Part shown: one piece after another, positions 15,954 to 20,709 of the stretch | Layout: each line of letters begins with the position of its first letter | Position numbering within the stretch: the first letter of the stretch is position 1 | NCBI GenBank assembly: GCA_000471045.1 | Contig: KI301992.1 | Location: 502,217 to 566,216 of the forward strand | From: an actinobacterium LLX17 | GTDB lineage: Bacteria > Actinomycetota > Actinomycetes > Propionibacteriales > Nocardioidaceae | DNA length: 64,000 nucleotides | Direction of reading: 5' to 3' | Program-made: the position numbers and the translations under genes | The notes under the pieces: model-generated | Told to the model about the DNA's origin: nothing | Databases searched by the model: none | What the model saw: only the letters and a program-made list of their open reading frames with translations

Positions 15954-17186
15954 CACCTCGGCATCGGGCGAGGGGTCAGGCAGGTCGTCATCTACGGCGT
16001 GACCAGCAGCGCGCCACGCCGCGACCGCCAGCACGATGACCGGCACCGTGAGTGTGGCTGCAGCGGCGTTGAGCGGGCCGAAGCCGCCCCAGAGCATGAC
16101 GAGCCCCGCCAGCAGACCACCGGCAGCTCCCGCGAGGTTCATCGACAGGTCGGCCACGCCCTGGACGGCGGGCCGAGCGACGGGATCGACCGCCGCGGTC
16201 AGCATCGCCGCCCCGGCGATGACCGACGCCGACCACCCGAGTCCCAGCAGGATGAGCCCGATGGTGATCTGCGGCTCGGAGTGCCCGGCCGTACCGGCGA
16301 CGGCGGTGGCCGCCACCAGCGTCACCTGACCGATGACGATCAGCGGTGCCGGGCCGATGCGGTCGCTCAGCCAGCCGAAGACGGGGGAGAGGGCGTACAT
16401 GCCGGCGATGTGCAGGCTGATGGTCAGCCCGATGACCTCGAGCGAGGCGCCGTGGTCCTGCATGTGGACCGGGGTCAGCGACATGACGCCGACCATGACG
16501 CCGTGTGAGGCTGCGATGGCGATGACCGCCGTGCGGACGCGGCCCCGTACGTGAGGCCACGGCTTCATCCGCGGTCGTTCGGCCGCATCGGGTTGAGGTG
16601 CCAGCGGGTCTGGGCGCAGCAGCAGGAACGTCAGCAGCCCCGCGGTCGTGAACGCGGTCAAGGAGAACACCATGGGACCGGCGAGGTCGGGGATGTCGAT
16701 CCGCCCGGCCACTGCGGCGCCCGGGCCGGTGAGGTTGGGCCCGGCGACCGCGCCGACCGTGGTGGACCACACGACGATCGACAGCGAGCGGCCCACGTGG
16801 CGCGGGTCGGCGCGGTCGACCGCGGCGAAGCGCGACTGCAGGTTCGCCGCGGTGCTGACGCCGAACAGGACCAGGCCGAGCAGCACCAGCAGCAACAGCT
16901 CCAGCTGGGCGCCGACGATGGCGACACCCGCACCGCTGGCGCCGATCAGCCAGCCGGCCGTCAGCGCGGGCCGACGTCCGGACCGGATGGCCCAGCGCGA
17001 GAGCGGCACCGTCGCCACTGCGGCCCCGAGGGTCAGCATGACGGTGGCCGTGCCGGCCCAGCCCGACGAGCCGCTGACGTCCTTGACGAGCAGGGCGCCG
17101 ATGGCCAGCCCGGCACCGTTGCCGATGCCGCCGACCACCTGCACCACCGACAGCGACGCGACGGTGCGCCGCTGCGGGAAGGTCAC
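15927..17186 (-). CDS. MFS transporter
   Basis: 419 residues with about twelve membrane segments. Features are the loop RWAIRSGRRPALTAGW after helix 3 (the MFS motif A position) and SPVFGWLSDRIGPAPLIVIG in the second half. GTG 17186 overlaps the stop of the upstream M13 peptidase gene, so both form one transcription unit. Substrate unknown. Confidence 0.87.
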   Translation of the reverse strand: MTFPQRRTVASLSVVQVVGGIGNGAGLAIGALLVKDVSGSSGWAGTATVMLTLGAAVATVPLSRWAIRSGRRPALTAGWLIGASGAGVAIVGAQLELLLLVLLGLVLFGVSTAANLQSRFAAVDRADPRHVGRSLSIVVWSTTVGAVAGPNLTGPGAAVAGRIDIPDLAGPMVFSLTAFTTAGLLTFLLLRPDPLAPQPDAAERPRMKPWPHVRGRVRTAVIAIAASHGVMVGVMSLTPVHMQDHGASLEVIGLTISLHIAGMYALSPVFGWLSDRIGPAPLIVIGQVTLVAATAVAGTAGHSEPQITIGLILLGLGWSASVIAGAAMLTAAVDPVARPAVQGVADLSMNLAGAAGGLLAGLVMLWGGFGPLNAAAATLTVPVIVLAVAAWRAAGHAVDDDLPDPSPDAEVSAPRDHVV

Positions 17187-19135
17187 GACGACCAGACGGT
17201 GACGCGTTCGGCGGGCTCCATCCAGAGCTCGTCGCCGGGCTGGACGCCGAACGCCTCGTGGAACGCCGCGATGTTGCGCACGACCTGGTTGCAGCGGAAC
17301 TCCGGCGGCGAGTGCGGGTCGAGCGTCAGGCGCCGCACGGTCTCGGCCGGACGCACCTTCGCCTGCCAGGCCTGCGCCCACGAGATGAAGAAGCGCTGGT
17401 CGGGGGTGAGTCCGTCGATCTCGGTGTCGTCAGGATCTGTGAGGCGGAAGGCGCGATAGGCGATGCTGAGCCCGCCGAGGTCGCCGATGTTCTCGCCGAT
17501 CGTCAGCGAGCCGTTGACCTGGTGGCCGTCCGCGCCCTCGGGCGAGAGCTCGTCGTACTGCGCCACGAGGGCAGCCGTCAGCTTCTCGAACGCCTCGCGG
17601 TCCTCGTCGGTCCACCAGTTGCTCAGCGCGCCGGTGCCGTCGTAGTGCGAGCCCTGGTCGTCGAAGCCGTGACCGATCTCGTGACCGATGACCGCGCCGA
17701 TCGCCCCGAAGTTGACGGCGTCGTCGGCGTCGGCGTGGAAGAACGGCGGCTGCAGGATCGCGGCGGGGAAGACGATCTCGTTCATCGTCGGGTTGTAGTA
17801 CGCGTTGACGGTCTGCGGCGTCATGTACCACTCGTCGCGGTCGATCGGCGAACCGATCTTGGCCAGCTCGCGGGCGGCCTCGACGGCCATCGAGCGGCGG
17901 GCGTTGCCCAGGAGGTCGGTGGGGTCGGTCTCGAGCGCCGAGTAGTCCTTGAAGCGCGGCGGGTGCCCGATCTTGGGCGTGAACGCCTCGAGCTTCTCGA
18001 GTGCGCGCTCCTTGGTGGCGTCGCTCATCCACGGCAGCTCGCGGATGCTCTGGCGGTACGCCTCGATGAGCGCGGCGATCAGGTCGTCCATCCGCTCTCG
18101 CGATGCCGGCGGGTACTCGGTCTGCACGTAGATGCGGCCCACGGCCTCACCCATCGCGCCCTCGACGAAGCCCACGCCGCGCTTCCAGCGGGGGCGCAGC
18201 TCGTCGGTGCCGCTGAGCGTGCGGCCGTAGAAGTCGAAGTTCTCCTCGACGAACGGCGTCGACAGGTAGGCCGCGGAGGCGTGCACGACGTTCCAGCGCA
18301 GCCAGTCGAGCCAGGCGGGCAGCAGGTCGTGGGTCAGCAGCGTCTGCAGACCTTCCAGGAAGGACGGCTGCGCCATGACGACCTGGGCCAGCGCCACGGC
18401 GGGGATGTCGCACGCCTCGGCCCACGCGGTCAGGTCGAACGCCGGCACCAGCGCCTGCAGCTCGTCGAACGACAGCAGGTTGTAGGTCTTCTGGGCGTCG
18501 CGGCACGAGACGCGGTCCCAGTGGAAGGCGGCCAGCTGCGTCTCGAGGTCGAGCACGCGCGCGGCGCGCTTCTCGGCGGCGTCGACACCGGCCAGGGTCA
18601 GCAGACGACCGACGTGGGCCACGTACGCCTCGCGGATCGGCGCCTGGTCGTCCTCGCGGTAGTACGTCTCGTCGGGCAGGCCGAGACCGCTCTGGAACCC
18701 GTGCGCGACGTAGCGGTCGGGCTGGCCGCGGTCGGGCGCCACGTACAGGCCGATGAGCCCGTGGGTGCCGGTGCGCTCCAGGTCGCCGAGGAGCCGCGCG
18801 AACCCCGCGACGTCGGTCACGGCGTCGATGCGCTCGAGGTCGGCGGCCAGCGGCTCGGCCCCCAACGCCTCGATGCGCTCGGTGTCCATGAACGACGCGT
18901 ACAGGTCGCCTATCTTCTGGAGGTCCACGTCCTCGCCAGGCGTGGCCGCCGCGTCCTCGATGATCTGACGGACCTTCAGCTCGGCCTCGTCGACCAGCGT
19001 CACGAACGCGCCGGCGGTGGCCCGGTCGGGCCGGATGTCGGTGCTGTCGAGCCATCGTCCGTTCACGTGCCGGAAGAGGTCGTCCTGCACCCGGATGGAC
19101 GGGTCGAGCTGCGAGATGTCGATGCCCGGATTCAC
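17183..19135 (-). CDS. M13 family zinc metallopeptidase
   Basis: 650 residues, matching the neprilysin/PepO/Zmp1 family length. Zinc-binding HEIGH is at residues 485-489, with the third ligand region GENIGDLGG about 60 residues later and the substrate-binding NAYYNP upstream. No signal peptide or membrane anchor is seen, as in mycobacterial Zmp1, so export, if any, is unconventional. GTG 19135 is preceded by TAGCCT ending six bases away on this strand, sharing a symmetric -10 box with the divergent siderophore-interacting protein gene. Confidence 0.93.
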   Translation of the reverse strand: MNPGIDISQLDPSIRVQDDLFRHVNGRWLDSTDIRPDRATAGAFVTLVDEAELKVRQIIEDAAATPGEDVDLQKIGDLYASFMDTERIEALGAEPLAADLERIDAVTDVAGFARLLGDLERTGTHGLIGLYVAPDRGQPDRYVAHGFQSGLGLPDETYYREDDQAPIREAYVAHVGRLLTLAGVDAAEKRAARVLDLETQLAAFHWDRVSCRDAQKTYNLLSFDELQALVPAFDLTAWAEACDIPAVALAQVVMAQPSFLEGLQTLLTHDLLPAWLDWLRWNVVHASAAYLSTPFVEENFDFYGRTLSGTDELRPRWKRGVGFVEGAMGEAVGRIYVQTEYPPASRERMDDLIAALIEAYRQSIRELPWMSDATKERALEKLEAFTPKIGHPPRFKDYSALETDPTDLLGNARRSMAVEAARELAKIGSPIDRDEWYMTPQTVNAYYNPTMNEIVFPAAILQPPFFHADADDAVNFGAIGAVIGHEIGHGFDDQGSHYDGTGALSNWWTDEDREAFEKLTAALVAQYDELSPEGADGHQVNGSLTIGENIGDLGGLSIAYRAFRLTDPDDTEIDGLTPDQRFFISWAQAWQAKVRPAETVRRLTLDPHSPPEFRCNQVVRNIAAFHEAFGVQPGDELWMEPAERVTVWSS

Positions 19136-19140
19136 GTCAG

Positions 19141-19147
19141 TAGGCTA
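19141..19147. promoter_or_regulatory. Shared symmetric -10 box for two divergent leaderless genes
   Basis: The heptamer TAGGCTA reads TAGGCT on the plus strand (seven bases before GTG 19154) and TAGCCT on the minus strand (six bases before GTG 19135). Only 18 bases separate the two start codons, so no other -10 placement is possible for a leaderless transcript and neither gene has space for a ribosome site. Confidence 0.75.
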
Positions 19148-19153
19148 CACAGC

Positions 19154-19996
19154 GTGACGAGGAACCGGCTGGCTCGACTGACCGTCCTGCGCACGGAGGA
19201 CGTCGGTCCTTCGATGCGGCGGGTCGTGCTCGGCGACGGCGACGTCGCGCAGGTGATCGAGCGGCACGCCGGGTTCACCGATTCCTACGTGAAGCTCGCC
19301 TTCCTGGCCGATGGGGTCGAGTACCCCGACCCCATCGACCTCGACGTCGTCCGCGCGACCATGCCGAGCGAGACCTGGCCCGTGCTGCGCACGTACACGA
19401 TCCGCCACCTGGACGCTGAGGCCCGTGAGGTCTGGATCGACCTCGTCACCCACGGCGACGAGGGCCTGGCCGGTCCCTGGGCACAGCGCGTGCAGCCGGG
19501 GGAGACGATCCACCTGCGTGGTCCGGGTGGTGCGTACCGGCCTGATCCGGCTGCCGATCACCACCTGCTGGTCGGTGACGAGTCGGCGCTGCCGGCCATC
19601 GCCGCCAGCCTCGAGTCGCTGCCGGACGGCAGTCGGGCCACGGCATTCATCGAGGTCGACGGGCCCGGCGACGAGGTGACCATCGCGTCGGCCGGCGACG
19701 TCGAGGTGCGCTGGCTCCACCGCGCCCCGGCCGCCTCCGGCACCACGACGCTGCTCGACGACGCCGTGCGGGCGTGGGAGTGGCCGGCCGGCCGGGTGCA
19801 GGCCTTCGTCCACGGCGAGTCCGCGCTGCTCAAGAGCGTGCGGCCCTACGTCCGCGAGCGCGTCGAACGTGCCGACCTCTCGGTGTCCGCGTACTGGCGG
19901 CGTGGGCAGACGGAGGAGGGCTTCCGGGCCTGGAAGCAGGACGTGGCCGCGCAGGGCGAGGAGACCATCCTGCGGCCTGGAGCGGGAGGGTCATGA
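19154..19996 (+). CDS. Siderophore-interacting FAD/NAD(P)H reductase family protein
   Basis: 280 residues. An N-terminal FAD-binding barrel contains LRTYTIRHLD near residue 80 (the RxYT flavin motif) and a GPGGAYRPD loop; a C-terminal NAD(P)-binding part contains VGDESALPAIAASLE and the terminal SAYWRRGQTEEGFRAWK typical of the SIP family, which reduces ferric siderophores in the cytoplasm. Its ATG-containing end overlaps the next gene (ATGA). Leaderless start at GTG 19154. Confidence 0.92.
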   Translation: MTRNRLARLTVLRTEDVGPSMRRVVLGDGDVAQVIERHAGFTDSYVKLAFLADGVEYPDPIDLDVVRATMPSETWPVLRTYTIRHLDAEAREVWIDLVTHGDEGLAGPWAQRVQPGETIHLRGPGGAYRPDPAADHHLLVGDESALPAIAASLESLPDGSRATAFIEVDGPGDEVTIASAGDVEVRWLHRAPAASGTTTLLDDAVRAWEWPAGRVQAFVHGESALLKSVRPYVRERVERADLSVSAYWRRGQTEEGFRAWKQDVAAQGEETILRPGAGGS

Positions 19997-20709
19997 CGAC
20001 GTACGCCCTCGTCCTCGCCGGTGGCACGGGTGCCCGCTTCGGTGCCGCCACCCCCAAGCAGCTGCTGGACCTCGACGGTCGCAGCATCCTCGAGGTCAGC
20101 GCCGCGGCGCTGGCGACAGCCCCCGGGGTCGACGCCGTCGTGATCGTTGCGCACCCCGACTGCCGCGCCGTGGCCGACGAGGTCGCCCAGCGTGTCCCCG
20201 GAGTCGTCGCCGTCGTCGACGGTGGTGACACCCGCGCCGACAGCACTCGCCGGGGCCTCGCGGCCGTCGACGCGCCCGACGACGCGTTGGTGCTGGTGCA
20301 CGATGCGGCGCGGCCGCTCGTCAGCCATCGCGTGATCGCCGACTGCCTCGCTGCACTGCGTCAGCACGACGCCGTCACCCCGGCGCTGGAGTCCACCGAC
20401 ACGTTGCTCGAGGTCGATGCGACCGACCGTGTGGTGGCCAGCCCGCCGCGCGACCGCCTGCGCCGGGTGCAGACGCCGCAGGGATTCCGCCTCGGCGTCC
20501 TCCGCCGCGCCCACGCGGCGGCCGCTGTCGACCCGCACGCCGTGCCGACCGACGACGTCTCGGTCGTGCTCGCCCACGAGACCGGCGCTTCCGTGGTGGT
20601 GGTGCCGGGCGAGGAGTCCAACCTCAAGATCACCCGTCCGGACGACCTCGAGCGGGCCCGTCAGATCCTGACCGCCCGACGAGTCGTCGGGGAGAGTGGC
20701 GATGTCTGA
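19993..20709 (+). CDS. ispD: IspD/TarI-family cytidylyltransferase
   Basis: 238 residues. It has the nucleotide-binding start LVLAGGTGARFG and the CTP/substrate loops VHDAARPLV and LRRVQTPQGF. This fits 2-C-methyl-D-erythritol 4-phosphate cytidylyltransferase of the isoprenoid pathway. However, ispF does not follow; two glycosyltransferases do, so a TarI-like polyol-phosphate (for example ribitol-phosphate) cytidylyltransferase for wall polymers is a real alternative. The symbol is therefore tentative. Confidence 0.75.
   Translation: MTTYALVLAGGTGARFGAATPKQLLDLDGRSILEVSAAALATAPGVDAVVIVAHPDCRAVADEVAQRVPGVVAVVDGGDTRADSTRRGLAAVDAPDDALVLVHDAARPLVSHRVIADCLAALRQHDAVTPALESTDTLLEVDATDRVVASPPRDRLRRVQTPQGFRLGVLRRAHAAAAVDPHAVPTDDVSVVLAHETGASVVVVPGEESNLKITRPDDLERARQILTARRVVGESGDV

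Follow-up and report, generated by a model that had tools for sequence, protein, structure and literature searches.

The present analysis concerns an 18-base gap between two divergent genes in a stretch of 64,000 nucleotides (hereafter the window) from the actinobacterium LLX17 of the Nocardioidaceae (contig KI301992.1, positions 502,217 to 566,216 of the forward strand). The gap holds the symmetric heptamer TAGGCTA (19141–19147), which reads TANNNTA on either strand, and our reading, which we hold at a probability of roughly 0.85, is that this one box acts as the −10 element in both directions for two genes predicted to be leaderless, one encoding an M13 family peptidase (M13) on the minus strand and the other a siderophore-interacting protein (SIP) on the plus strand, the latter forming a putative unit with ispD. 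Both genes begin with GTG, at 19135 on the minus strand and at 19154 (19154–19156) on the plus strand, the first bases of the two codons lying 19 apart with 18 bases between them. Along the plus strand, the hexamer TAGGCT (19141–19146) is followed by the 7-base spacer ACACAGC and then by GTG, while along the minus strand TAGCCT (19142–19147) is followed by the 6-base spacer ACTGAC and then by GTG. A first-pass annotation of this DNA had given these start positions, the gap, the heptamer and the spacer lengths, all of which proved exact when the sequence was read again; its further proposal that the promoter core is the whole intergenic region also stands, in that the box and its two spacers use up all 18 bases. 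Symmetric bidirectional promoters of the type described by Warman et al. (2021) are recognised by one −10 element with T−12, A−11 and T−7 on both strands, and these are present in TANNNTA at 19141–19147, where T19141 is T−12 of the putative hexamer for the SIP-ispD unit and A19147 pairs with T−12 of that for M13. No −35 element was seen by eye at the locus, where any such element would fall inside the opposite gene; the promoters of M. tuberculosis are described, in the part of PMC3898074 available to us, as TANNNT without a conserved −35.

The prediction that both mRNAs are leaderless draws on the placement of TANNNT, which ends 6 bases before the start codon of M13 and 7 before that of SIP. 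In a 464-kb sample of this genome, made up of the window and 20 further stretches of 20 kb and holding 388 genes called by codon usage, TANNNT stood before start-codon candidates 46 times at gap 6 and 25 times at gap 7, against a mean of 2.6 (range 0–10) for the remaining 29 gaps in the 0–30 range; read in reverse, the hexamer never exceeded 12, a value reached at gaps 7 and 10. The base immediately 3′ of TANNNT at gap 6–7 was A in 3 of 71 cases, T in 5 and G or C in 63, a count that includes this M13 gene among the three with A and leaves out SIP, which was missed by our home-made gene caller. Given the peak at gaps 6–7 and the rarity of a following A, the organism appears to make wide use of leaderless TANNNT starts, and the A that makes the box symmetric appears to be disfavoured at ordinary ones. 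Among 53 further M13 loci (L138–L190), which are mostly from more distant actinobacteria and include one Aeromicrobium locus with genes apart (L139), 47 have TANNNT at gap 6–7, followed by G in 34, T in 11, C in 2 and A in none.

The box is itself uncommon. The window holds a single TAGGCTA against an expectation of 0.13 copies (13 of 100 shuffles held one), and the 3.0 Mb genome holds 6 versus 92 copies of the reversed pattern. Only the copy described here is flanked on both sides by coding-length open reading frames (ORFs) starting at 6–7 bases; none of the other five has coding-length ORFs on both sides even at gaps of 5–9. With the middle bases left free, the pattern CAY-N5/6-TANNNTA-N5/6-RTG is found at 6 sites in this genome versus 1 for the reversed control, and each of the 6 is flanked by divergent ORFs no shorter than 136 amino acids.

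The evidence that carries the reading comes from relatives. Among named genomes the closest M13 proteins are those of Aeromicrobium (Nocardioidaceae), and in 49 Aeromicrobium genomes searched the M13 gene was found in 48 (no match in G028) with its start readable in 47 (in G038 it is cut at a contig end). A close divergent gene lies at 40 of these 47 loci, at a distance of 18–20 bases in 34, of 32 bases in five and of an uncertain 21–51 bases in G032. TAGCCTA, as read on the M13 strand, is kept in 39 of the 40 shared loci, where shared and apart are states assigned by the analyst and the 40 include G011 (with a substitute ORF) and the five 32-base rows. Start codons in the relatives were placed by alignment, and several of their genomes are incomplete. 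In contrast, the symmetric A is present in none of the seven Aeromicrobium loci with the genes apart; the M13 box there is TAGCCTG or TAGTCTG, and the base lost is T−12 of the partner's box. One of the seven has no SIP (G047), and in the other six SIP lies 85–121 bases off (G015, G001, G023, G016) or 206–232 bases off (G025, G012) and is preceded at 6–7 bases by a separate TANNNT, the next base being C, C, T, T, G and G, and M13 likewise by one with a following G. G062 and G065, which the search tool labels as other genera, also share the promoter and carry TAGCCTA; an outgroup row, G053, in which the M13 box is unreadable, was excluded from the counts. Within Aeromicrobium and the two neighbouring loci, parsimony on the M13 tree counts three changes of sharing, with the A lost each time, and these we infer to be separations. 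The proposal of the first-pass annotation, that one symmetric −10 box serves two leaderless genes, is strongly supported by this comparison (39 of 40 shared versus 0 of 7 apart), and the check it had named, conservation of the box in relatives that keep the pair, found TANNNTA in every shared Aeromicrobium locus except G032.

Across 30 compared columns in the 41 loci with TAGCCTA (39 in Aeromicrobium and one in each of the two other genera), GTAGCCTA is the sole invariant block. The box is also intact at loci in which the plus-strand start has been altered. In G011 (L081, contig C1 near 1702713) SIP is gone and a 19-codon ORF beginning with ATG, which overlaps ispD by ATGA and is possibly a leaderless coupling mini-ORF, stands at the same 19-base distance; in five other rows (G020, G006, G008, G044 and G034) SIP begins instead at an ATG preceded by GAGG, 14 bases further downstream. 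Because the box is intact in all of these, it tracks the need for a divergent transcript and not the start codon, and the five relatives with a moved SIP start and a kept box rule out a translational constraint as the cause of its conservation.

Other divergent gene pairs of Aeromicrobium repeat this design. The genes encoding PEBP and a SpoU methylase (here called TrmH) were compared at 48 loci, G009 being left out with an incomplete locus; 42 are shared and TANNNTA is present in all 42, with middles GGT, GCG, GCC, GGC and GAT, while in the six loci apart the A is present in none and G stands in its place in all. Four of the apart rows (G039, G026, G007 and G033) have no TrmH within the stretch read; in the other two, G018 and G032, where TrmH lies 86 and 37 bases off respectively, it is preceded by a TANNNT of its own. 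For UppS/HlyIII, 14 of 46 loci are shared, 11 of them with strict TANNNTA (middles CTC, GAT, CCC, GCC, CAT and GAG), and none of the 32 loci apart is symmetric. TANNNT precedes UppS in 28 of these 32 and is absent in 4, and HlyIII has its own TANNNT at gap 6–7 in all 32, situated 41–94 bases from the UppS start and followed by T in 11, G in 11, C in 10 and A in none. Pooled over the three pairs, the A follows 0 of 81 boxes of separated partners (7 M13, 6 SIP, 6 PEBP, 2 TrmH, 28 UppS and 32 HlyIII), boxes that come from related species and do not represent 81 events. Expressed as independent contrasts on the M13 tree, on which two PEBP rows and one UppS row do not appear, the change is in the predicted direction in 3 of 3 for M13/SIP, 3 of 3 for PEBP/TrmH and a mean of 1.3 of 2 for UppS/HlyIII, with none in the opposite direction. 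In these other pairs T−12 and A−11 of both boxes are kept and the middle is variable. The first-pass annotation had pointed to the central G-C step as a target for mutation; since the middle three bases vary in the two other pairs while TA...TA stays, that step is probably not the key to the box, the informative positions of which are the outer bases T19141 and A19147.

A number of observations weigh against this interpretation. At the M13/SIP locus, G032 has SIP beside M13 and yet carries TAGCCTG, and the middle GCC and the preceding G are invariant in the 41 loci, which a two-way −10 element alone does not account for. The PEBP/TrmH locus of G032 was scored as apart on the grounds that the TrmH alignment begins at 37 bases and TrmH has a TAGAGT box to itself, but a second candidate start lies at 19 bases, and if counted as shared the locus becomes an exception (42 of 43 shared, 0 of 5 apart). 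Three genomes (G033, G046 and G021; L244, L245 and L248) share UppS/HlyIII at 18 bases with GAGATTA, in which one box is without T−12. The UppS/HlyIII gap of these three has TGAGATTA in place of TANNNTA, HlyIII retaining TAATCT and UppS having GAGATT, an asymmetric exception. No pair alone is significant by a sign test, there being three, three and two changes of sharing, and the M13 tree holds many part-length rows. Counts of CAY-N-TANNNTA-N-RTG versus the reversed control over the 49 Aeromicrobium genomes are in favour for spacers 6/5 (120 versus 57) and 5/5 (92 versus 23), figures that are not independent as the same loci are counted in related species, and for spacers 6/6 the genus shows no enrichment (16 versus 38). 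In a draw of 149 genomes from the phylum, the 5/5 pattern is no commoner than its reversed control (204 versus 237); a phylum-wide generality was therefore rejected, and on the strength of these counts we limit the proposed architecture to Aeromicrobium and the two neighbouring loci. Within the same phylum draw, one family (f16; 12 genomes, G207 to G337) has 18 sites of the 5/5 pattern versus 5 for the control, an excess seen after the fact, and the shared-box architecture may also be present there.

SIP is a typical iron-regulated gene, and TAGSCTA is the core of the 19-base DtxR/IdeR iron box, with consensus TTAGGTTAGSCTAACCTAA. The conserved 7-mer might as such be the operator of an iron regulator, an explanation consistent with this identity of core and with the invariance of the central GCC in 41 loci. 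Furthermore, 19-mers that match at 13–15 of 19 positions, above the highest of 100 shuffles, lie upstream in G053, G056 and G078, in which the two genes are apart, and G023 and G016 have a match of 13 of 19 at their separate SIP promoters. The flanks, however, do not bear this out: over the 41 loci an average of 2.4 of their 12 positions match, under the 3 expected from equal base frequencies, the window's own site matches at 8 of 19, and at the shared promoters no 19-mer exceeded the highest of 100 shuffles for an iron-box match. PEBP/TrmH and UppS/HlyIII repeat the geometry with other middles, and separated M13 genes retain TANNNT and not the palindrome. With only the core of TTAGGTTAGSCTAACCTAA present, the iron-box explanation was rejected on its flanks, and we consider it very improbable. 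The iron-box-like 19-mers of G056, G078 and G053 (in L070, L069 and L062) lie approximately 68–140 bases before the M13 start, and iron control may have been lost along with sharing.

In a high-GC genome dense in divergent leaderless genes, two leaderless promoters could also come to overlap by chance, their symmetry being unselected. Divergent pairs with close but separate boxes do occur in this genome, with starts 33 bases apart in 3 of 49 sampled pairs (L094, L100 and L107) and 42–49 apart in others. The A after the box is nevertheless found at 3 of 71 sampled starts and yet at 39 of 40 shared M13/SIP loci and 42 of 42 shared PEBP/TrmH loci, and at none apart; this comparison of shared and apart loci leads us to reject chance overlap, to which we accord hardly any weight. 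The 33-base spacing is a second recurrent geometry, and L094 contains two interlocked leaderless boxes. It could be argued instead that the box drives one gene only, the other mRNA beginning within the gene on the facing strand and carrying a leader; in five relatives SIP does have a short leader. In that case T−12 and A−11 of the partner would need no conserving, yet the whole 7-mer is kept in 41 loci, and the apart rows that hold both genes give each its own TANNNT at 6–7 bases; we thus think a one-gene box most unlikely.

Under the favored reading of a single two-way −10 element, the holoenzyme of the primary sigma factor would read TAGGCT on the plus strand and begin the SIP-ispD transcript at the SIP GTG or beside it, or would alternatively read TAGCCT on the minus strand and start M13 at or next to its GTG at 19135. 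A −10 element that ends 6–7 bases before the start point and is read both ways would place the starts 18–20 bases apart, the distance predicted for M13/SIP, and in leaderless mRNAs the start codons would coincide with the start points and hence also be 18–20 apart. It is reasonable to postulate that the intergenic region consists of the box and its spacers only because both mRNAs are leaderless and the −10 geometry sets the 18–20 bases. In the available portions of PMC12825309 and PMC10268837, promoters of the Warman type are defined by divergent transcription starts 7–25 bases apart, with 18 the commonest distance, in agreement with the first-pass annotation, which had called a spacing of about 18 typical of bidirectional promoters. 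The same annotation had offered obligate co-initiation of the two genes as one outcome, which our analysis does not support. Polymerase on the box would exclude another, the two directions would never be occupied together, and the two starts would be alternatives at each event; at ordinary promoter strength firing would probably be independent. In E. coli, according to the portion of PMC12825309 available, basal transcription from five tested bidirectional promoters is too low for polymerase competition, and one side of these promoters was repressed when the other was substantially activated. Obligate co-initiation appears unlikely given that occupancy would be mutually exclusive and that no competition was seen at basal strength in E. 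coli. Mutually exclusive and mostly independent firing is the default expectation, and a coupling of the two directions is possible if either side is strong.

The element proposed here resembles the symmetric bidirectional promoters of Warman et al. (2021; via the available portions of PMC12825309 and PMC10268837) in its pseudo-symmetric −10 read on both strands, in the commonest spacing of 18 there and in the mutually exclusive binding of polymerase. It differs from what those portions describe in that both mRNAs are predicted to be leaderless, the promoter geometry would fix the intergenic length and both gene starts would be locked to the box; the word 'leaderless' is absent from the main texts of both papers. 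With the leaderless TANNNT genes of actinobacteria (PMC3160421, PMC3898074, as far as available) it has in common a TANNNT approximately 12 bases before the start codon, although no shared box is described in the portions of those papers. Closely juxtaposed divergent promoters are reported as common in the part of PMC3898074 available, which gives Rv1129c/prpD as a divergent pair with leaderless mRNAs. The lysG/lysE pair of M. tuberculosis, as presented in the available part of PMC5648196, is similar in being two divergent actinobacterial genes with overlapping promoters and one leaderless lysE transcript. It is dissimilar in its 108-base intergenic region, its control by a regulator, its separate −10 and −35 for each gene and its two lysE promoters, and no single shared −10 carrying both start codons is described for it, unlike M13/SIP. 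A single box common to two leaderless genes was not described in the open-licence literature on leaderless, divergent and bidirectional promoters, among the matches listed and in the portions available, nor in those of PMC4633059, PMC3848588 and PMC5648196. What would be new here is the combination of a known type of symmetric bidirectional promoter with leaderless starts.

The gene for the M13 family peptidase (17183–19135, minus strand; 650 amino acids) matches Pfam PF05649 (E 7e-119) and PF01431 (E 1.2e-73), and that for SIP (19154–19996, plus strand; 280 amino acids; SIP/FAD_binding_9 family) matches PF08021 (E 3.6e-30) and PF04954 (E 9.8e-36). For both, the alignments of relatives begin at the same start codons in most rows. 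The SIP reading frame stays open antisense across the M13 gene. Downstream, ispD (19993–20709, plus strand; PF01128) encodes IspD, the cytidylyltransferase of the MEP pathway, and its start at 19993 was also given by the gene caller; as the SIP stop overlaps the ispD start in ATGA (19993–19996), ispD is probably co-transcribed with SIP from the shared box.

Eighteen stretches with the pattern were fetched (the 5 other sites of this genome and 13 hand-picked from recurring matches), and 15 have ORFs of at least 135 amino acids on both sides, the exceptions being L200, L201 and L208. Both partners have Pfam names in eight kinds of pair: UppS/HlyIII, PEBP/SpoU methylase, AidB-like acyl-CoA dehydrogenase/BrkB-YihY, TetR/PNP_UDP_1, alpha-amylase/NDK, Methyltransf_4/DinB_2, 5-FTHF cyclo-ligase/UDPGP and GNAT/methyltransferase. 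The TetR/PNP box of this genome (L194, 2040–2062; 1972739) is part of a larger palindrome, CACTGTCGTAGGGTACGACGGTG, which may be a TetR operator placed on the shared promoter. In L208 (approximately 2048–2236; G022) a TANNNTA site, also present in G010 and G019, faces a 55-amino-acid basic, cysteine-containing ORF without a long partner, possibly an unannotated leaderless small protein. A deep sharing of UppS/HlyIII was sought in 17 other actinobacterial genomes and rejected, as HlyIII was matched in 13 fetched stretches and none of the 13 had aligned starts 18–20 apart.

Bidirectional promoters have so far been defined by mapped start sites, and here they are predicted from sequence, with leaderless start codons reporting the start points. 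Furthermore, the comparison of species tests for selection on the symmetry itself, which start-site maps cannot do, and in three pairs the symmetric base is mostly kept where the promoter is shared and absent where the genes are apart. The question of whether bidirectional promoters are accidents or maintained devices becomes directly testable in an environmental genus, and a start-to-start distance of 18–20 with TANNNTA provides an annotation rule for start codons. We put forward, tentatively and as a possibility less probable than its opposite, that single-box divergent leaderless pairs are a maintained architecture of Aeromicrobium, in which mutual exclusion sets a coupled balance and damps noise, and in which the genes of an opened pair acquire their own boxes and the symmetry decays. 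If this were true, the balance at the locus described here would be between a peptidase on one side and an iron reductase-like protein together with the isoprenoid enzyme IspD on the other, and the genus would offer a ready-made series of natural promoter mutants.

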